Below are positions 23,376 to 58,350 of a stretch of 64,000 bases of DNA, piece after piece (position 1 is the first letter of the stretch; the number at the start of each line of letters is the position of its first letter). Both the position numbers and the translations under genes were made by a program. Origin of the DNA: a virus; IMG/VR virus record IMGVR_UViG_3300045303_000182, positions 45,847 through 109,846 of that record. One strand, 5' to 3'. The notes under the pieces are model-generated. The model saw only the letters and a list, made by a program, of their open reading frames with translations. It did no database searches and was not told where the DNA came from.

Positions 23376-24737
23376 TCAGTTCGTGACGATCTTGCAGACC
23401 GAGGACTCGGTCACGACGCCCCAGCCCCAAATCGAGTACCACGCCAGCGCGTGCTCACGACCGAAGTCGAGCACCCCGCCGTCGCGAAGCTCCACCGGGA
23501 GGGAGATGGCATGACCGAAGGCGTTGTCGCCCAGGACGATGGCCTCGTACGCGCCACCCGACGGACCCCACGGCTGACCCCAGCCGGGGAGGCCAACGGA
23601 GCCGGTCGGGTTGTCGTCCAGCGCTGCCGGATCGGCAACGTCCGCGAACGGGTCGAGCGTCTCGTCGTAGTTGGTCATCGACAGGTCGCCACCGGCCTGC
23701 AGCGCGGCGCGCTGGGCCTCGGTGAGGCCGAGGGCCGTGCCACGCCAGTCCGGGTTGAACGGGTTCGCCGTGGCGACCGCCCCACCCGGCAGGTTCGGGT
23801 ACGGATCCGACTCGGTGCCGGTGACCGGCGCACCGATCTGCGTCGTCTCGATGAAGACCACGTCGTCCAGACGGCCGATCTCGCCCAGCATGAAGTTGCC
23901 GGGAGCCGCGTACTTCGTGACCTCGATCCACTCCGGGGTGTCCCGGAGCCGACGGGACTGGTGCGGGTGGACGAAGCAAACGTACGTCTCACCGAGGCGA
24001 GGCACGTTCTTGCTCGACAGCACCTCGACGGCGTCCTTCACGCTGTGCGGCGTGAGGTAGTAGCCGTTGTCCACGCCACCCGCCGTCACAGCGGCGATGT
24101 TGGCGGCGACGGTCCCCGGCTCGTAGATGCCGTAGCCAGCGTTGATGGCGGCGGGCTTCTTGTAGCCGAACACGACGCTCGACGCGCGCTGGAGCGTGCT
24201 GCGAGCCTGGCCGTCCATGTAGAGCGCCATGTTGCGGCCCAGGAGACGCGAGGCCGAGGCCATCACGTCATCGAAGGACGCGTTGAGCAGGAGCTCGGAG
24301 ACGGCGACCGCGAAGCCCTGCTCTGCGACGGTGATCGCGTACTGGTTCGCCGTGATCGCGTGCGTCTTCATGCGGACGCCTTCGATCAGTGGCCCAGCGG
24401 GCATGGGGAGGTTGTTGTAGCGCATGAAGTTCACGGTCAGACCCGGCATCGTGCCGAGTTCCGTCTTCTTCACGGCGAACTGCTCGAACCGGAGCACGGG
24501 CATGCTCTGGAAGAGGATCTCCTTGGACCAGATGGTCTGGATCGCTGGACCCATCATCGTGGTGCCGGATGCAACGGAGCCGGCGTAGCCGACCCCTGTG
24601 TTGTCCATCGTCGCGTTGCCGTAGTACCCCACAGGGGCCTCGTACTGCGAGTAGGGACCGCCCGTGGCGATACGCGTGGTACCGGTGATACCGGAAACTA
24701 CGGGAAGCTCGCCACCGAGACCAGTACCTGCGGGCAT
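23376..24737 (-). CDS. Major capsid protein (N4-gp56-like, HK97 fold)
   Basis: A 453-residue protein, adjacent to scaffold and portal. The N-terminal region AIQTIWSKEILFQSMPVLRF is the hallmark of the N4-gp56 major capsid family (iw..eile.a.p.l.f.qfa). FVHPHQSRRLRD and LGEIGRLDDVVFIE are also typical of it. AGGAG precedes the ATG. It forms the icosahedral shell. No protease gene was seen nearby, so maturation may not involve cleavage or the protease lies elsewhere. Confidence 0.85.
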   Translation of the reverse strand: MPAGTGLGGELPVVSGITGTTRIATGGPYSQYEAPVGYYGNATMDNTGVGYAGSVASGTTMMGPAIQTIWSKEILFQSMPVLRFEQFAVKKTELGTMPGLTVNFMRYNNLPMPAGPLIEGVRMKTHAITANQYAITVAEQGFAVAVSELLLNASFDDVMASASRLLGRNMALYMDGQARSTLQRASSVVFGYKKPAAINAGYGIYEPGTVAANIAAVTAGGVDNGYYLTPHSVKDAVEVLSSKNVPRLGETYVCFVHPHQSRRLRDTPEWIEVTKYAAPGNFMLGEIGRLDDVVFIETTQIGAPVTGTESDPYPNLPGGAVATANPFNPDWRGTALGLTEAQRAALQAGGDLSMTNYDETLDPFADVADPAALDDNPTGSVGLPGWGQPWGPSGGAYEAIVLGDNAFGHAISLPVELRDGGVLDFGREHALAWYSIWGWGVVTESSVCKIVTN

Positions 24738-45798: not shown

Positions 45799-46275
45799 TC
45801 AGGAATCCTCCTCAGCCTGAGCCTCTTCCAGCGCGCGTCGCAGAGCGAGCCGCTCCTCCTCCTCTTCGTGCTCGGCCATCCAGTCCTTGAGCCTCTGGAG
45901 GTTCGCCGGGGTCAGCGGGCCTGCTGGGAAAGCGAGATCAAGCTGATCGAAGGCGAGCACAGGGAACCACGCCCAATCTCTCCCTTCCCATACCCCGATA
46001 CGGTGCGCGGCCTGGTCGTACTTGAGCGTGCCCACCTCGAGGAGCTCAAAGATCCGCAGTGCCTCCTGGATCTCGCGCGACCGATGAGGCTTCATCTCGA
46101 TGTAGTACTTGCCGTCCACGAAGTGGACCGGGAAGCCCTCGGGTTGGCCGAGGGCACCACCGAACTGCTGGGGACTCAGGTGGGGGCTGCGGTGGAGCGC
46201 GGCGCGGTCGCCGCGCTCCCGTAGCTCATCCATCGTCGCCTTGGGGATCTCAACCCAGGACGGATCAACGGTCAT
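45799..46275 (-). CDS. Hypothetical protein
   Basis: A 158-residue protein (PKATMDELRERGDRAALHRS, FVDGKYYIEMKPHRSREIQE) with an acidic coiled-coil C terminus (EHEEEEERLALRRALEEAQA). ATGA overlap with the LPxTG gene. A TACCCCGATA palindrome lies inside the gene. Unknown family. Confidence 0.45.
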   Translation of the reverse strand: MTVDPSWVEIPKATMDELRERGDRAALHRSPHLSPQQFGGALGQPEGFPVHFVDGKYYIEMKPHRSREIQEALRIFELLEVGTLKYDQAAHRIGVWEGRDWAWFPVLAFDQLDLAFPAGPLTPANLQRLKDWMAEHEEEEERLALRRALEEAQAEEDS

Positions 46276-47744
46276 GCCCGCCGGCGCTTCCTCCCTACCG
46301 AGAAGAGGGCGAGGCCCGAGCCGAGGGCGAGGGCAGCAATAGCGAGGTAGGTGCCGCTGTTGCTTCCGGTGGGTGGCAGTCCCTCGGGCGGGGGCGTGAC
46401 CCCTGGCGGGAACGGCCCGTTCGGATTAGCGCAAGTTGCGCTCTCCGGTGGGTAGGTGACGAAGGCCGTAGCCGTCGGGTTGACCGTGTAGGTCAGGTTG
46501 ATGCCGGCGCGGAGGAACTCGTCGCTGGGGTCGCGGATCCAGAAACCATCGCTGGTGAGGATCCAGCCAGGCACGTCAGCGATGGTTCCATCGCTGTTCA
46601 CGGTGGTACCTGGGTACAGCAAGTCCACGGTCGTGCCGGGGGCGTAGACCAGCGGTTGGGTCGAGACGACGTTGCCGTTGATGTCCGACATCGTCAGCGT
46701 CCCAGTGCGACCGGCCAACTCGGGGAACGTGTTCTGGAAGACGATCCTGATCGTCGGAACCTCAGCCACGCAGACTGTCGCCGCGGCTCCGAACGTGAAC
46801 GGTGGGGCTGGCACCGTCGTGGTAGTGGTCCCAGGGATCGTAGGCCCAGTCGTGGTGGTCCCAGGGATGGTGGTGGTGGTCGTTGTGGATGGCGAGGTCG
46901 TCGTCGTCGGCCCAGTCGTAGACGTGGGTGGCACCGTCGTCGTCGTCGGCGGGAGCGTCGTGGTCGTCGGCGGGAGCGTGGTCGTCGTCGTCGTTGATGT
47001 CGTCACCGCCGTGGTCGTAGTGGTAGGTGGGCAGTTCGGTGGGAAGGTCACGGAGGCCGTTGCTGTCTCCGGGCCGAGCGAGTAGATCAGGTTCACGTTC
47101 TGCGTCGTGTTGGGGTAGGCGATCGTCACCGTCTGGTTCGACTGGAAGGTCAGGAACACCGACCCGCCCGTGCTGAACGACAGCACTCCGACCTGACCGT
47201 TGAGGTCAGGCCGATCACCGAAGGTGATCGAGATCTCGGGCAGGAAGTCGGGACCGCAGAAGGCGAACACGTTGACCGCGAACAGGCTCGGCTTCGGAGG
47301 CTGGGTCGTGCTCGTCGTGCTTGTGGATGACGTTGTGGAAGTTGTGGATGACGTACTGGTCGAGGTTGTGGAACTCGAGGTCGTCGTCGTCGGCTTCATC
47401 GTGGTCGTCGTGGTCGGGTACGGCTTGTGGGTCGTCGTGGTCGCTGGCAACGTCGTCGTCGGAGCAACGGTCGTGGTCGTCGTCGGGTAGGTGTGCGGCG
47501 GCTTCTCCGTCGTGGTCGTGTCGTGCTTGTACGTCGTCGTCGTCTCGTACGGCTTGTGGGTGGTGGTCGTCACCTCCCGCGGCTCCGTCGTGGCAGTGGT
47601 CGTCGTGTAGTTCTGCGTCTCGACCTGCACGACTTGCTCGACCGGGGCTTCATCGGGCGGCTGCGGCGACTCTTCGGCCATCACTGCAGGCACTCCACAT
47701 GCCGCTAACACCAGGAGGCCCAGTAGCCCCAGTCGCCTGATCAT
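46272..47744 (-). CDS. Thr-rich LPxTG surface protein
   Basis: A 490-residue exported protein. N terminus: signal peptide MIRRLGLLGLLVLAACG with an apparent lipobox LAAC (Cys16). Residues ~45-150 and ~230-305 are mucin-like Thr/Pro runs (TTTTTVAPTTTLP). Between and after them are two similar beta domains (FAFCGPDFLPEISITF; CVAEVPTIRIVFQN). C terminus: LPPTGS (456-461), a hydrophobic segment, and RKRRRA, a classic sortase anchor. GGGGAG precedes the ATG. It would be displayed on the infected host, possibly glycosylated; superinfection exclusion or surface masking are possible roles (inference). Confidence 0.75.
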   Translation of the reverse strand: MIRRLGLLGLLVLAACGVPAVMAEESPQPPDEAPVEQVVQVETQNYTTTTATTEPREVTTTTHKPYETTTTYKHDTTTTEKPPHTYPTTTTTVAPTTTLPATTTTHKPYPTTTTTMKPTTTTSSSTTSTSTSSTTSTTSSTSTTSTTQPPKPSLFAVNVFAFCGPDFLPEISITFGDRPDLNGQVGVLSFSTGGSVFLTFQSNQTVTIAYPNTTQNVNLIYSLGPETATASVTFPPNCPPTTTTTAVTTSTTTTTTLPPTTTTLPPTTTTVPPTSTTGPTTTTSPSTTTTTTIPGTTTTGPTIPGTTTTTVPAPPFTFGAAATVCVAEVPTIRIVFQNTFPELAGRTGTLTMSDINGNVVSTQPLVYAPGTTVDLLYPGTTVNSDGTIADVPGWILTSDGFWIRDPSDEFLRAGINLTYTVNPTATAFVTYPPESATCANPNGPFPPGVTPPPEGLPPTGSNSGTYLAIAALALGSGLALFSVGRKRRRA

Positions 47745-50166: not shown

Positions 50167-50601
50167 ATGAGACGCCCCCTGCTGCTCGCCGTTGCGGCCC
50201 TGCTCCTGGCCGGTTGCGACCTCGACTACCCCGCCCTCGGCCTCTACCGCGATGTCACCCCCGGAGGCCAGGAGCAGATCGACCAAGGCTTCGTTGTCGA
50301 TGTCATCACCCCCGTCGATCTCCCCGGCATCTGGCTCGCCGCCCATCGCTCCAGCCACGGCTCGAGTTTCGCCAACCTCGTCAATGCCCGCGTCGGTGAC
50401 CAACTGACCTACGGCGGTGTCAACTACGTCGTCGTCCGCACCGCCATCGTCAACGATGCCTGGACCCCGCGTTACCTCGGCCCTCTCGTCCTGCAGACCT
50501 CCTTGCCGGGAGACGACAACCTCCTCGTCATCTGCGAACCGGCCGGCGCACCACCCCCCGGCACCGCAACCGCCTCCCTCCGCGCCGTCCGACTCCCGTG
50601 A
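50167..50601 (+). CDS. Sortase-like lipoprotein with Ser at the Cys position
   Basis: A 144-residue protein. N terminus: lipoprotein signal with LLAGC (Cys17). Residues ~38-125 follow the sortase fold plan: IDQGFVVDV, GIWLAAHRSSHGSSF (His60 in the catalytic AAHR position, like GHR), GDQLTYGGVNYVVV, then LVLQTSLPGDDN where sortases have TLxTC. Here the catalytic Cys position is Ser112, and the downstream Arg position is Asn118. It may be inactive, redirected to another chemistry, or a binding decoy. An LPxTG protein lies 2.4 kb away. Sortase fold is inference from motifs; only one domain is present. Confidence 0.55.
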   Translation: MRRPLLLAVAALLLAGCDLDYPALGLYRDVTPGGQEQIDQGFVVDVITPVDLPGIWLAAHRSSHGSSFANLVNARVGDQLTYGGVNYVVVRTAIVNDAWTPRYLGPLVLQTSLPGDDNLLVICEPAGAPPPGTATASLRAVRLP

Positions 50602-50693
50602 GGCCCGAAGAGCGCCACGACCTCTACGTCCTGATCATCGGCCTGGTGCTGACGATCGCCCTCGGAGCCGCCGCAGCCCGCTGGATCCCTTAG
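50598..50693 (+). CDS. Very small membrane protein
   Basis: A 31-residue protein (ERHDLYVLIIGLVLTIALGA) with a single transmembrane helix. GTG start overlaps the sortase-like stop (GTGA). Probably a partner of the sortase-like lipoprotein. Confidence limited by length. Confidence 0.4.
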   Translation: MRPEERHDLYVLIIGLVLTIALGAAAARWIP

Positions 50694-50751
50694 CGATACC
50701 GCACTACCCAACCCGCACTACGGCCCTATAGGGATGCGGAGTTGCTAATCG

Positions 50752-50832
50752 CTACCCAACGAGCGCAACCACCAACACGCACAGCAAGCCGGTGACGGCT
50801 GCGAAGATCAACGCCTTCGACTCGTCGCTCAT
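50752..50832 (-). CDS. Very small membrane protein
   Basis: A 26-residue peptide (MSDESKALIFAAVTGLLCVL + VVALVG) with one transmembrane helix. Its ATG overlaps the RHH stop as ATGA, which argues for real translation. Role unknown. Confidence 0.4.
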   Translation of the reverse strand: MSDESKALIFAAVTGLLCVLVVALVG

Positions 50833-51029
50833 CGTCGGTTCGGCCAGTTGTCGGAGACGCCCTGATCCTTGCGGTAGCGCTGTGGCCCCCGCATCATGCT
50901 GTCCGGTTGGACGCCCTGGCGTCCCAACTCTTGCCGGATCGCTGCCTGGAGTAGTGGGCTGAGGCTCAGCCCGTACGCCTCAACGAGGTCATCGAGCTCA
51001 GCCGGTAGGTAAACGGTGCGTTGTGCCAT
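50829..51029 (-). CDS. Ribbon-helix-helix DNA-binding protein
   Basis: A 66-residue protein. The N terminus QRTVYLPAELDDLVEAYGLS and the helix that follows (PLLQAAIRQELG) give a ribbon-helix-helix (CopG/Arc-like) fold: a beta strand RTVYLP, then two helices. Leaderless: TAATGT lies six bases before the ATG. A perfect palindrome covers that element, so it probably represses itself. It may act as an antitoxin-like or operon repressor; no toxin is adjacent. Confidence 0.65.
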   Translation of the reverse strand: MAQRTVYLPAELDDLVEAYGLSLSPLLQAAIRQELGRQGVQPDSMMRGPQRYRKDQGVSDNWPNRR

Positions 51030-51049
51030 ATACGTACATTAGTACGTAT
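51030..51049 (-). promoter_or_regulatory. RHH operator and leaderless promoter
   Basis: ATACGTAC (51030-51037) and GTACGTAT (51042-51049) are perfect arms around ATTA. The -10 element TAATGT (51036-51041, minus strand) lies in its centre. The palindrome spans the promoter of the RHH gene, so autorepression is likely. Confidence 0.6.
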
Positions 51050-51234
51050 ACCCCCGGCATCGTCAAGCCCTTAGAGACTATGACAGTTTGCAGCGATAAC
51101 CGGTGTTCACCAGGCACGATGGCGACACCTCGAGCAGATAATGCCTGGTCAGAGCGTTCTGCACTACGGCCGAAACTCCCACGGTCCAACACCCACCGCC
51201 GTTCCCTCGGCCGGCCGGAGGCCGGTCCGTAACT

Positions 51235-51261
51235 TAATAGGCGGCTATCGCCGGCCTATTA
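51235..51261. repeat. Hairpin A with GGC-TATC-GCC core
   Basis: TAATAGGC and GCCTATTA enclose CGGC-TATC-GCCG, one base bulged. It is the most 5' of four related hairpins. Confidence 0.5.
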
Positions 51262-51281
51262 GTTACTAATGCGGGCATGCC

Positions 51282-51303
51282 ATAGCCGCCTATAGGCGGC
51301 TAT
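51282..51303. repeat. Perfect 22-bp palindrome (hairpin B)
   Basis: Arms ATAGCCGCCTA and TAGGCGGCTAT are perfect complements with no spacer. Second of the four inverted repeats. Confidence 0.6.
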
Positions 51304-51346
51304 TGTTGCTAGCAAGTCGTGCTCATAGTTGAGCTCGACCAGGGCA

Positions 51347-51370
51347 TATGCACGGCTATTGCCGTGCATA
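51347..51370. repeat. Perfect hairpin C, TATT loop
   Basis: TATGCACGGC and GCCGTGCATA form a 10-bp stem around TATT. Third of the four, with outer arm bases different from its neighbours. Confidence 0.6.
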
Positions 51371-51391
51371 AGCACGACCAGTTGCCAACGA

Positions 51392-51411
51392 TAGACGGCT
51401 ATTGCCGTCTA
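51392..51411. repeat. Perfect hairpin D, TATT loop
   Basis: TAGACGGC and GCCGTCTA form an 8-bp stem around TATT. Last of the four; only the GGC-TATT-GCC core is shared with hairpin C. Confidence 0.6.
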
Positions 51412-51585
51412 CGTGCCGAGGGATACAGGTGCTCGAGGCGTTCGCTAGTAGCTACGAGCTATCAACTCGGAGCGTTATCGATGAGTCATTGTCTGCATTC
51501 ACTCATGAGCTCGGTGACTGATATGGGCATGGGTGGCTCTCACCGGCCGCAATAGGGCGCGCCGTTGGTATCGGCATATGGGGTG

Positions 51586-51678
51586 ATGAGCACTCAGTAC
51601 GCATGGGACACGGCGCTAACGCCATGGGCCGAGCATGGGCTGACCATGGGCCGAACGAGTACGGTCGTGGGATGTTGA
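51586..51678 (+). CDS. Possible leader peptide of the methyltransferase
   Basis: A 30-residue frame (MSTQYAWDTALTPWAEHGLT...). Its stop TGA overlaps the methyltransferase ATG at 51672 closely (ATGTTGA), so it could couple translation to the enzyme. It has no ribosome site. Evidence is weak. Confidence 0.25.
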   Translation: MSTQYAWDTALTPWAEHGLTMGRTSTVVGC

Positions 51679-52814
51679 CGGTGGACCTCTTCGGAGGCGC
51701 AGGTGGTGCAGCCCTTGGGCTGGAGAGGCTTGGACTCAGGCCGTGGTCGTACGAGATCGTGGGGGACTGTGTTCAGACTCTGCGCCGAGCCGGTCACCGC
51801 GCCGTGCAGTGCGACCTGAGCACGTACGCATGGGACGAGGGGTGGCGTGGTGAGGTTGGGGTGCTGCATGGGTCGCCGCCTTGCCAGCCGTGGAGCGCGA
51901 GCGGATCGGGCCGTGGTGCTGCTGACCCACGCGATGGCATGCCGCACATGCTGCGAGCGGTGGAGGCGTTGGAGCCGTGGCTGGTGACCGTGGAGAACGT
52001 GGAGGGGCTGACGTACGCCAAGCACCGGCCGTACCTCGACTGGTTCGTGGAGTCGCTGCGAGCGCTGCGCTACATCGTGGAGTGGCGGGTGCTCAACACG
52101 GCCAACTACGGGGTGCCGCAGACGCGCAAGCGGCTCATCATCGTGGGGCGCATCGGTGGCAGTGTGCGATGGCCCGCACCGACGCACGCCAAGCAGAACG
52201 CCGGCAACGCGCGGACGTGGAAGCCAGGCGACCCCGACGTGCTGCCGCCCGTACTGCTGCCGTGGGTGAGCATGGCCGAGGCGCTCGGTTGGGGGATGAC
52301 CACGAAGCCGATGCTGACGATCGCCTCGGCGCGGACGACCGGTGGCCCTGATGCCCAGGGCGTCGGCGGTAGCCGTGCTCGGGCGGTCCTCGAGGCCGAG
52401 CTAGTCGCCGGTCGGTGGGTGCTGAACACGGGCAACGATTGGAAGCCGGGACAGGATCGGCGCACCGCGCAGAAGCGCTCGCTGCTACGACCGGCACCGA
52501 GTCTCACTGGCAAGTCGGGCGGGCACTGGGTGCTCGACCGACCAGCGACCACGGTGCAGAACGACACACGCGTGCACCCGCCTGGACACCGAGCGAACGC
52601 CGACTACGACGGCCACCCACGGCGCGGCCCGGACGCGTACCGGCTGAGCGTGGCCGAGCTAGCGCGGCTGCAGGACTTCCCCGACGGCTACCCGTTCGTT
52701 GGCACGAAGACGAGCCAGGTGAGGCAGATCGGCAACGCCCTCCCGGCCACCCTGCTGCAGGCGGTAGTGGGAGCGAACCTGTGGCCCCCGCATTGGCCCG
52801 TAGAAGAGCCGTAG
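51672..52814 (+). CDS. Orphan C5 cytosine DNA methyltransferase
   Basis: A ~380-residue enzyme that methylates cytosine C5 in DNA using S-adenosylmethionine. Motif I VDLFGGAGGAALGLERLG, motif IV GSPPCQPW with catalytic Cys71, motif VI VENVEG, motif VIII RKRLIIVGR, and IX/X RLQDFPDGYPF and IGNALP are all present in order. The start is set at the ATG nearest to motif I (51672); the frame extends 23 codons upstream. No restriction enzyme lies nearby, so an anti-restriction role is likely. It sits between the hairpin block and a TATCGGCATA site. Confidence 0.85.
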   Translation: MLTVDLFGGAGGAALGLERLGLRPWSYEIVGDCVQTLRRAGHRAVQCDLSTYAWDEGWRGEVGVLHGSPPCQPWSASGSGRGAADPRDGMPHMLRAVEALEPWLVTVENVEGLTYAKHRPYLDWFVESLRALRYIVEWRVLNTANYGVPQTRKRLIIVGRIGGSVRWPAPTHAKQNAGNARTWKPGDPDVLPPVLLPWVSMAEALGWGMTTKPMLTIASARTTGGPDAQGVGGSRARAVLEAELVAGRWVLNTGNDWKPGQDRRTAQKRSLLRPAPSLTGKSGGHWVLDRPATTVQNDTRVHPPGHRANADYDGHPRRGPDAYRLSVAELARLQDFPDGYPFVGTKTSQVRQIGNALPATLLQAVVGANLWPPHWPVEEP

Positions 52815-52980: not shown

Positions 52981-54687
52981 TCACCACCCGCCGACGTGGT
53001 GGCGCTTGCTGGGCACCCACTCCATCAGTGCCTCGTACTGCACCGACTCTTCGCTCATCGTCACCGGGCGACCGGCGTTCACCGCGTCGCACACGGCAGC
53101 CTTGCGCTCTAGGACGACCCAGCCAGCCGCGTCGAACGTCGCGTCGCCGTCGCTGTAGTGGGCCTGCAGGACGTGCCACGTCACGCGCTCACCGGCAGCG
53201 GCGCGGGCCTTGGTGATGTCATCGACGCGCAGGTTGCGACCGGCCGTCTGAGCAAGGTCGCCCGCCGACCACGGCACCTGCACGTACACCGCGTCCGAGG
53301 CTGCGGTGAGCGTGACGGCCATGCCCGCCGCCTTGACCTGCGCGAGGCACACCTGCGCGTCACCGGCCTGGAACTCTGCGATGGCGTCGGTGCGATCGTC
53401 GCCGGTCACCGAGCCGTTGATCGACACGATGCTGATGCCACGGCCGAGCAGGGCCAGGCTCAGCTTCGTCCACACCGACTTGTGGTCGTAGAACGCGATG
53501 ACCTGCTTGCCCTCAGCGACGAGGTCAGCGATGTAGTCGGCGGCGTACTCGGCCTTGGCGACGCCCGCCTCTTCGCGGAGCATGCCCATCTGGACGACGG
53601 CCTGCGCGCGGCTGACCTTGTCGGCCCACACCGCGCCGCGCTCTTCGGCGCACAGGTTGTAGAAGTCCTTCTCGACCCGCTGGTACCGGCGCATGATGCT
53701 GTCGGGCAGCGTGGCCGGGACGATCGTCCAGCCGCTGTGGGGCAGCACGCCCTCGCCCAGGTCGGCCTTCTCGCGGCGCACGTAGGCCGTGCGGCGCAGG
53801 CAGTCGTGCAGCACCAGCGCGGTGGCCGTGTCGATGCCGGTGAACTTCGTGAACGTGCGCCCGCCCTTGGCACGGCCCTGGACCGGGGCGCAGTAGCGCC
53901 ACTTGTAGCTCGCCAGGCTCGACGCGCCAGGCGTGACGGCCTTGACGAGCGCCTCGCCGCCGACGATCTGCAGCGGGATGAACGCCTCGATCGGGCGGTT
54001 GGTGAGCAGGGTGCCGGTGGCACCGACGATCGGCGTGCCGACCGAGCGGCACCATGCGCCGACGGCGAGCATGACCTTGCTGCGGCCGGTCGGCTTGTCG
54101 CCGTTGCCCTTGTCGCGGTGAATCTCGTCGCGAGCGATCAGCGACGCGGTCTGCACCCAGGCGCTGGCGACGTGGTGCTTCTTGCCGTTGGCACCGACGA
54201 CCTCGTCGGTCAGCCAGGTGCTCATCGTGCGGCTGTCGTCGCTGATGAAGAACACGTCGGCGTCGGGCAGCGGGAGACGCTTGTGGCCCTTGACGATGCA
54301 CAGGCGCAGGTTGGGGAAGCACGCCGCCAACTCGGTGATGTAGCCACCCTCGGCCACCGGAGGGGCGACGATGATGGCGGGGCGACCGGTGGCCGCGATG
54401 CGCTCGGCGGCGAGCGCGAGCAGCACGGCCGTCTTGCCGAGGCCCATGTCGTCACCGACGAGGCAGCCGCCCCAGCGGGCGATCGACGCCTGGGCGTACA
54501 GGTAGGCGCTCGCCTGCCAGGGGTGGAAGGGGCGAGCGAGGCCGGGGATGACGACCGGCGCAGCCGGGGCGAGCGCCTTGCTGGCGGCGAGCCAGGCATC
54601 GTCACCGAGGCCGTGGAACGCCACGACGGGCGTAACGGGCGCAGCGGCCGCAGCGGCTGCGAGTGTGGGGTCAAACAGGTTGGTCAT
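52981..54687 (-). CDS. SNF2-type helicase / DNA translocase
   Basis: A 568-residue SF2 ATPase. Motif I DDMGLGKTAVLLAL (~80), DEIH in RDEIHR (~186), motif III GTPIVGATGTLLTN (~222), motif V/VI TLTAASDAVYVQVPW and QTAGRNLRVDD (~482), with an N-terminal HPWQASAYLYAQ Q-like motif. The layout is that of single-polypeptide Snf2/SMARCAL1-like phage proteins. It may remodel DNA or strip proteins during replication or repair. Minus-strand operon with the shared TTGGTT...GCTAGC promoter and a TATCCT -10. Confidence 0.8.
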   Translation of the reverse strand: MTNLFDPTLAAAAAAAPVTPVVAFHGLGDDAWLAASKALAPAAPVVIPGLARPFHPWQASAYLYAQASIARWGGCLVGDDMGLGKTAVLLALAAERIAATGRPAIIVAPPVAEGGYITELAACFPNLRLCIVKGHKRLPLPDADVFFISDDSRTMSTWLTDEVVGANGKKHHVASAWVQTASLIARDEIHRDKGNGDKPTGRSKVMLAVGAWCRSVGTPIVGATGTLLTNRPIEAFIPLQIVGGEALVKAVTPGASSLASYKWRYCAPVQGRAKGGRTFTKFTGIDTATALVLHDCLRRTAYVRREKADLGEGVLPHSGWTIVPATLPDSIMRRYQRVEKDFYNLCAEERGAVWADKVSRAQAVVQMGMLREEAGVAKAEYAADYIADLVAEGKQVIAFYDHKSVWTKLSLALLGRGISIVSINGSVTGDDRTDAIAEFQAGDAQVCLAQVKAAGMAVTLTAASDAVYVQVPWSAGDLAQTAGRNLRVDDITKARAAAGERVTWHVLQAHYSDGDATFDAAGWVVLERKAAVCDAVNAGRPVTMSEESVQYEALMEWVPSKRHHVGGW

Positions 54688-57261: not shown

Positions 57262-57467
57262 GACTGCGCCGCCGTGAACGCGGCCAGCGCGAGCGCCTCG
57301 ACGCGCTTGGTCAGCTTGCCGTCGCCGCTGTAGGTGAACGTCGGCTCGCCGCCGTCCTCGCCGGGGCGCACGGTGATCGTGCCGAACCAGCCGTGGAACT
57401 GCCCGGACAGGCGCACCACGCCACCGTTCAGGTGGCGGGTGCTGTAGTCGTACTGCAGGCCGCTCAT
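57258..57467 (-). CDS. Small protein, unknown
   Basis: A 69-residue beta-rich protein (SGLQYDYSTRHLNGGVVRLS, GKLTKRVEALALAAFTAAQ). The ATG at 57467 overlaps the Ku-like stop by TGATG. No motif. Confidence 0.5.
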   Translation of the reverse strand: MSGLQYDYSTRHLNGGVVRLSGQFHGWFGTITVRPGEDGGEPTFTYSGDGKLTKRVEALALAAFTAAQS

Positions 57468-58276
57468 CACGCCACCTTGCCCTTCGCAGCCTTGGCCGCA
57501 TCGATGCTCGCCTGCAGGTCGGCCATCAGGTCACCGATGACGGGGACCGCGGGCTTCGCCGGGGCGGGGACGCCCTTGGCCTTGTTGTCCACGAACGCAC
57601 GCACCGCGGGCGCTGTGTCATCGGTGAGCACCGGGGTGCTGGTGCCGACCGCGTCGAGCAGGGCCTCGGCCAGCGCCAACTCGGCGGCGCTGAACTTGAA
57701 GCCGTCGTTCAGGTCACGCGCCTCGCGGACCTGATCGGCCGTGCGGACGTAGGTGAACGAGCCGTCGGCGGCGAGCAGGGCGTAGCGGGCGGGGCCGCGC
57801 AGGGCGACCCGGACGAGGGCGACGACCTTCTTCTTCCGCAGCACGGTGAGCAGCAGCGCGAACGCCTTCTCACCGGCAGCGTCGGCCTTGCCCTTGACGG
57901 CCTTCGGCCGAACCTGCGCCACGTCCTGCGCGGCGTAGTTGCCCACGTCCTTGACGGGGATGAAGGTGACGATGTCACCGACGCCCTTCGGGCAGGTGCA
58001 GTCGGCAATCTCGTCGTCGGTCAGGACGACCCACGCGCCGTTGCTGGCCTCGGCCATGCGGACGACGCGGTCCGACGGGATGACCTCGCCAGTGTCCTTG
58101 CGGATGGGCGAGCGGCCGACGGGGATCGATGCGTCGCCGTCGAGGAACTCGTTGCGGGAGACGCGTGTCTCTTCGGTGCCGGTGTAGACACCGAGCGGGA
58201 TGTTCAGCACGCCGAAGGCGAGCGTGAACGAGTTTGATGCCCGTTGCGGGGCGGGGGCGAGTGCGGTGGTGCTCAT
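57467..58276 (-). CDS. Ku-like DNA-end-binding protein
   Basis: A 269-residue protein. Residues ~15-150 fit the Ku core: FTLAFGVLNIPLGVYTGTEE (is.GL..ip.....at), GRSPIRKDTGEVIPSDRVVR, and SNGAWVVLTDDEI, as in bacterial Ku (yy.v..dG..ev...d.v....... g..vvltdeE). Phage Ku proteins (for example in Omega and Corndog) cooperate with host LigD to circularise genome ends. The remaining part (RKKKVVALVRVALRGPARYA) is also Ku-like. Leads a five-gene operon; shared-type promoter at 58317-58345. Assignment by motif; no ligase seen here. Confidence 0.65.
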   Translation of the reverse strand: MSTTALAPAPQRASNSFTLAFGVLNIPLGVYTGTEETRVSRNEFLDGDASIPVGRSPIRKDTGEVIPSDRVVRMAEASNGAWVVLTDDEIADCTCPKGVGDIVTFIPVKDVGNYAAQDVAQVRPKAVKGKADAAGEKAFALLLTVLRKKKVVALVRVALRGPARYALLAADGSFTYVRTADQVREARDLNDGFKFSAAELALAEALLDAVGTSTPVLTDDTAPAVRAFVDNKAKGVPAPAKPAVPVIGDLMADLQASIDAAKAAKGKVA

Positions 58277-58316
58277 GGGATTCTCCGATTGGTAGGTGTG
58301 GAGTGGAACGGGGATC

Positions 58317-58350
58317 AGGGTATCGAGCGTGCTAGCAGAAACCAACACGC
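58317..58350 (-). promoter_or_regulatory. Shared-type promoter of the Ku operon
   Basis: TTGGTT (58340-58345), 17-base spacer with TGCTAGCA, -10 TACCCT (58317-58322). Leader with CACCTACCA before GGAGA and the ATG. Confidence 0.55.

Follow-up and report, generated by a model that had tools for sequence, protein, structure and literature searches.

A conserved hairpin array beside a helicase gene is a candidate replication origin in a group of actinophage-like soil myoviruses

Results

Genes around the intergenic block

The window, the stretch of 64,000 nucleotides analyzed here, is part of a virus contig of 109,846 b (G000:C1), and for some counts the whole contig was searched. The contig is that of a myovirus, with recognizable tail sheath, portal, head and terminase genes, and its distant kin are Streptomyces phage BRock and relatives (TerL about 46% identical). 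The carriers of the block described below are a group of actinophage-like myoviruses. An earlier note on this DNA had placed the block between an RHH gene and a methyltransferase gene, and both were found there: to the left, a gene for a small RHH/HicB-like protein (50829–51029, minus strand), for which the match is weak (phrog_497, E 0.006), and to the right, a gene for a C5-cytosine DNA methyltransferase (PF00145; 51603–52814, plus strand), which was undetected in the relatives searched. A perfect palindrome and possible operator, TATACGTAC-ATTA-GTACGTATA (51029–51050), lies where the RHH-like gene starts. The methyltransferase gene separates the block from its conserved neighbor, a gene for a SNF2/DEAD-type helicase (52981–54687, minus strand). 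The 3' end of the helicase gene is 1.5 kb from the block in this phage, and in relatives about 0.5–0.9 kb separates the same gene from the block, which lies downstream of it. This phage has another SNF2-type helicase (G000:C1:28673-30367), of which the helicase beside the block is a diverged paralogue; the one beside the block was undetected in BRock and in the more distant relatives G025 and G027. That the block is gene-free was borne out in the sense that matters, because the sole ORF called across it (51319–51555, 78 aa) has a weak codon pattern.

Several other genes of this phage can be described. At 46272–47744 the window encodes a Thr/Pro-rich protein of 490 aa with a sortase-type sorting signal at its end, made up of LPPTG followed by a hydrophobic stretch and KRRRA, and residues 316–443 of this protein (C-terminal stretch) are 76–86% identical in several relatives. 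The major head protein (23376–24737) carries an extra stretch at about residues 305–393, which is common to the block-bearing clade and missing from BRock, G025 and G027. A Ku-like DNA-end-binding protein is encoded at 57467–58348 and is kept in relatives, and G000:C1:3248-4654 matches the queuine tRNA-ribosyltransferase family (phrog_887).

Anatomy of the element

Four hairpins had been noticed before in the block, and all were confirmed far beyond chance; they are part of a larger element at about 51161–51411, whose features are given here on the plus strand. The leftmost is a conserved GCACTAC box (51161–51167), about 70 nt left of the core. It is followed by a hairpin absent from the earlier list, P1 (51211–51225; CCGGCC-GGA-GGCCGG), with a C(GGA)G loop, and by the AT-rich core GTAACTTAATAGG (51229–51241; clade consensus GATCTTAATGG). 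P2 (51235–51261), the first of the hairpins listed before, is near perfect, with one bulged G. The array hairpins ATAGCCGCC-TATA-GGCGGCTAT (51282–51303), TATGCACGGC-TATT-GCCGTGCATA (51347–51370) and TAGACGGC-TATT-GCCGTCTA (51392–51411) are each perfect. At 51305–51316 lies GTTGCTAGCAAG, one mismatch off the palindrome GTTGCTAGCAAC, for which the window has seven matches with at most two mismatches against 1.1 expected. Two further copies of the GCACTAC box are present at 50701–50707 and 50715–50721 (plus strand), at a distance that is not conserved, and the clade-specific intergenic repeat AGTTGCTAA is found at 50740–50748 (plus strand; four in the window against 0.15 expected). Around the cores of 12 genomes the AGTTGCTAR repeat occurs 21 times against 0.36 expected, and none of the copies of AGTTGCTAA in this genome lies inside the block.

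Chance can be excluded for the hairpins by several measures. Within 600 b there are four perfect hairpins of at least 8 bp, counting the palindrome at 51029–51050 just to the left of the array; shuffles have 0.07 on average and 1 at most. RNA folding of 51110–51460 gives a z-score of -8.0, with none of 100 dinucleotide shuffles as low. In a folding scan of the 64 kb, no other 250-b window is as structured as the block, which is also the densest cluster of perfect hairpins (at least 8 bp, loop of 3–8) in the 109,846-b contig.

Conservation of pairing in relatives

The clade was found by means of TerL and helicase profiles, and a DnaB profile also retrieved relatives; all block-bearing relatives are metagenomic contigs, with genes called as simple ORFs. 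With the methyltransferase or the single helicase sequence as the query, no relatives were found in viral contigs. Similarly, no homologous block was returned when phages were searched by blastn with the block, or plasmids with the block and the methyltransferase together; in 42 relatives, a blastn search with the block had chance matches only, some of them inside TerL. An equally structured block is nevertheless present beside the same helicase gene in related contigs, without similarity that BLAST detects. In folding scans, the syntenic stretch is strongly structured in G004 (L096), G010 (L100), L104, L105 (G044), L108 and L110, and weaker in L102, L107 and L109 (G047). Since L106 (G005) and L113 have the core with the array reduced or missing, members of the clade can do without the array; a search for the core in L115 found none.

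As MAFFT gave no structural alignment of the hairpins, pairing was compared within and across genomes. P1 is perfect (at least 5 bp) in 9 of 11 genomes, with a background at random places of 0.13, and P2 is perfect (at least 7 bp) in 8 of 11, though not in this phage, where it has the bulge, with a background of 0.026. Arms pair at 1.00 within each genome, a value that is descriptive because the hairpins were preselected as perfect, and at 0.64 (P1) and 0.35 (P2) across genomes. P1 and P2 were defined after the sequences had been seen, and the informative quantities are the genome counts, the low pairing across genomes and the background rates. The proposal in the earlier note that selection acts on pairing rather than on sequence is thus supported: hairpins occur at the same place in relatives, and pairing, whose loss there had been named as the result that would speak against it, is kept while the arms change. 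The GGC-TATN-GCC core that the note had described as shared is present in the hairpins of this phage and is private to it, as the TATN loop core was not found in relatives. It is the architecture, not this loop core, that is the conserved feature.

A conserved distance between box and core

The shared order is a GCACKAC box, P1 (loop often C(GGA)G), the AT-rich core (CTTAATGG; CTTAATAGG in this phage) and then the hairpin array. All 12 genomes compared have a CACKAC box about 70 nt to the left of the core. Within 400 b leftward of the cores, 12 copies of GCACTAC were counted, where 0.15 would be expected. As an exact pattern, CACKAC-N58-72-TTAATG was found in 7 of the 27 records searched, always at the block, and its reversed control had no match in virus contigs; the window itself escapes this pattern because it has TTAATA. 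The probability of the spacing is not to be taken at face value, because the core was chosen by eye before the spacing was tested, but with a genome-wide rate close to zero, its presence in 12 of 12 genomes is not easily set aside. A collection-wide scan with narrow patterns returned the known loci and four chance matches. A shorter pattern was discarded, since among the matches listed there were so many that chance must dominate.

A GC-skew switch at the core

GC skew had been suggested as a check on the block, and the strongest minus-to-plus switch of the contig sits at its core. It spans 50300–52100, with its center at about 51200, and its difference of 0.34 exceeds any other in the 110-kb contig, where the second largest is 0.22. 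The switch at the core is the strongest one of each of four near-complete genomes (0.34, 0.36, 0.37 and 0.28; next best 0.18–0.22). Over about 1.5 kb to the left of the core the skew is minus, and to the right it is plus. With the core as the point of alignment, each of 11 genomes has negative skew in the bins between -1250 and -500 and positive skew in those at +250 and +500, and the averaged profiles flip at the core. At fourfold sites of minus-strand genes the skew is -0.29 (-1500 to -300) and +0.24 (+300 to +1500), with a baseline of about 0.11 far to the left, and that of plus-strand genes shifts in the same direction. Because fourfold sites agree in both gene orientations, gene direction and protein sequence are not the cause of the switch. 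The effect is local, extending mainly 1.5–3 kb leftward and more weakly to about 10 kb rightward, and there is no genome-wide pattern of two halves.

A strong skew switch in the relative G021 was set aside as unrelated to the block, because it lies inside an RHS/YD-repeat gene (G021:C1:72054-79799, an ORF of 2,581 aa with a strong internal skew change). The more distant relatives G025 and G027 each have a single dominant switch in a gene-poor region, at about 37400 of G025:C1 and about 83875 of G027:C1. These two sites share the same two neighbor genes and contain short direct repeats, not hairpin arrays; the repeats are suggestive of iterons.

Replication genes and a second hairpin array

The contig codes for a PolA-type polymerase, a DnaG-like primase, a DnaB-like helicase, a RecA-like protein and an O-like initiator, the last assigned by a weak PHROG match (6e-6). 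The O-like initiator has counterparts of about 30% identity in G004, G047 and G044, whereas G050 has a very weak match only. Its gene contains a second hairpin array, located outside the window at G000:C1:34318-34430 (L198:14318-14430), and on the linear contig map the intergenic block is about 63 kb from this gene. In relatives, too, O-like genes carry hairpins, with two to six perfect ones each in 11 of 11 loci examined, a set that includes the near-duplicates L258 and L259. Their density is 3.4 perfect hairpins per kb inside the O-like genes against 0.85 outside, and the arrays sit mainly in the linker-coding part, between the winged-helix and C-terminal parts of the protein. On the coding strand, 11 of 18 loops of the O-gene arrays are TNC, and one more is GNA. 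In most genomes the O-like gene is without a skew switch; a faint one is seen in this phage and in L256.

Stems and loops of the hairpins

Wobble pairs were counted symmetrically and compared with shuffles, with the tRNA acceptor stems of a related phage as the control. The blocks have 32 G-T pairs (shuffles 15) and 19 A-C pairs (shuffles 7.5), a similar excess, whereas the control stems have 23 G-T and no A-C pairs. The stems thus appear duplex-symmetric, without the strand-specific G-T wobble of RNA. They do contain compensatory changes, which DNA palindromes would show as well. Among three-base loops, 17 of 24 in the blocks belong to the class formed by GNA and its complement TNC, compared with 14 of 85 outside the blocks in four genomes; in this phage the array loops are TATN, and a GNA-type loop (GGA) is found in P1 only. 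Rfam and tRNA searches on the block gave no match. Folding also showed a better minimum free energy for the plus strand than for the minus strand in all four genomes folded, and 51125–51136 is complementary over a long range to 51430–51441.

Discussion

Taken together, the sequence comparisons suggest that the block is a cis-acting DNA element and not an RNA gene, and that it is probably a palindrome-array replication origin, a reading in which we have moderate confidence. Among the three functions offered in the earlier note, an origin fits best, DNA hairpins or protein-binding cruciforms are compatible with the data, and a small RNA is disfavored. The bipartite core, consisting of the GCACKAC box, about 70 nt and the AT-rich CTTAATGG, would combine an initiator-binding site with a site of strand opening. 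The initiator may bind the box and/or the palindromes, upon which the AT-rich core would open. The array and P1, as palindromic binding sites or as extruded one-strand hairpins, could help to load helicase and primase, so that a replisome of the lambda-O-like initiator, the DnaB-like helicase, the DnaG-like primase and PolA would be assembled. Forks departing from this site would account for the skew.

The location of the O-like gene array has to be weighed against this reading. The lambdoid origin is an iteron array bound by dimers of O and lies in the middle of gene O (PMC7466680; PMC5043065). An array within the O-like gene, considered with the lambda origin inside O, thus ties the palindrome arrays of these phages to replication, and it also provides a rival site for the origin. 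By the lambda paradigm the origin would be expected in the O-like gene, which counts against the block. The working origin could then be the array in the linker region of that gene, with the block as a partition or packaging site, or as a secondary or late origin. RHH proteins can bind centromeres, and the RHH-like gene next to the block in this phage would be in line with a partition site. Two origins appear to be used by phage ICP1 (PMC7145576). The skew switch, however, is at the block and is absent or faint at the O-like gene, and it is not expected of a partition or packaging site. We consider an origin in the O-like gene, with another role for the block, unlikely.

The proposed intergenic origin resembles ori-lambda in its array of dyad-symmetric sites and in the presence of an O-like initiator with a DnaB-like helicase and a primase, in addition to the second array inside the O-like gene. 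In contrast to the iterons within gene O, the block sits between genes and at a great distance from the initiator gene, and its palindromes vary in sequence within and between genomes. To our knowledge, lambda has no 12-bp perfect stems bearing GNA loops. The telomere palindromes of Streptomyces have GCA loops closed by G-A sheared pairing (PMC4513846), and like those of the block they are packed tightly together, with loops that are very small and in part of the GNA type. Unlike a telomere, the block does not lie at a DNA end but within the contigs examined, flanked by genes on either side, and in an unsystematic look no terminal protein or Tap was recognized.

The very strong folding of a conserved non-coding stretch also brings to mind a large structured non-coding RNA of about 300–700 nt, transcribed rightwards to the terminator of the helicase gene; the long-range complementarity and the better plus-strand folding would agree with it. 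The ornate phage-associated RNAs GOLLD and ROOL are likewise large multi-hairpin stretches of phage genomes with strong predicted folding, but the block, of about 200–350 b, has neither an Rfam match nor the wobble signature of RNA: G-T pairs are not in excess over A-C pairs, unlike in tRNA stems. Furthermore, the loops are of a DNA type, the array is dispensable in L106 and L113, a constant distance between box and core with free intervening sequence suits DNA better, and an RNA would leave the skew on both sides unexplained. We therefore regard such an RNA as improbable.

It is more doubtful still that the hairpins are transcription signals, as hairpin promoters of the N4 type or antitermination or operator sites: N4 promoters share with the blocks short hairpins with stem letters that are free but paired and C(GNA)G loops (PMC4496689; enriched across the clade, in this genome in P1 only), AGTTGCTAR repeats occur in other intergenic regions and leftward operons start nearby, but the block has longer stems and a whole series of hairpins side by side, a virion RNA polymerase of the N4 type was not recognized among the subset of proteins searched, hairpin number, spacing and loops differ between genomes, and no conserved start-site context was found.

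A palindrome-array origin thus stays our preferred interpretation of the block. In phage N4 the C(GNA)G loop is needed for extrusion of the promoter hairpins (PMC4496689). A wider model, which we put forward tentatively and hold to be possible at most, is that in this lineage of dsDNA phages arrays of one-strand hairpins of the C(GNA)G type, extruded by supercoiling, are the recognized origin element, with two arrays per genome, one intergenic and one in the initiator gene, and with letters free to change as long as the arms pair.

For most large actinobacterial phages the origin seems not to have been mapped; our literature search found no paper on such origins. The element described here provides a precise candidate that can be recognized without sequence identity, through a syntenic hairpin array, the spacing of box and core, and a skew switch. 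If the hairpins rather than their letters are what is recognized, the recognition of DNA hairpin structure known from N4 promoters and Streptomyces telomeres would extend to a theta-type phage origin; the arrays in the O-like genes offer a second test of the same rule.
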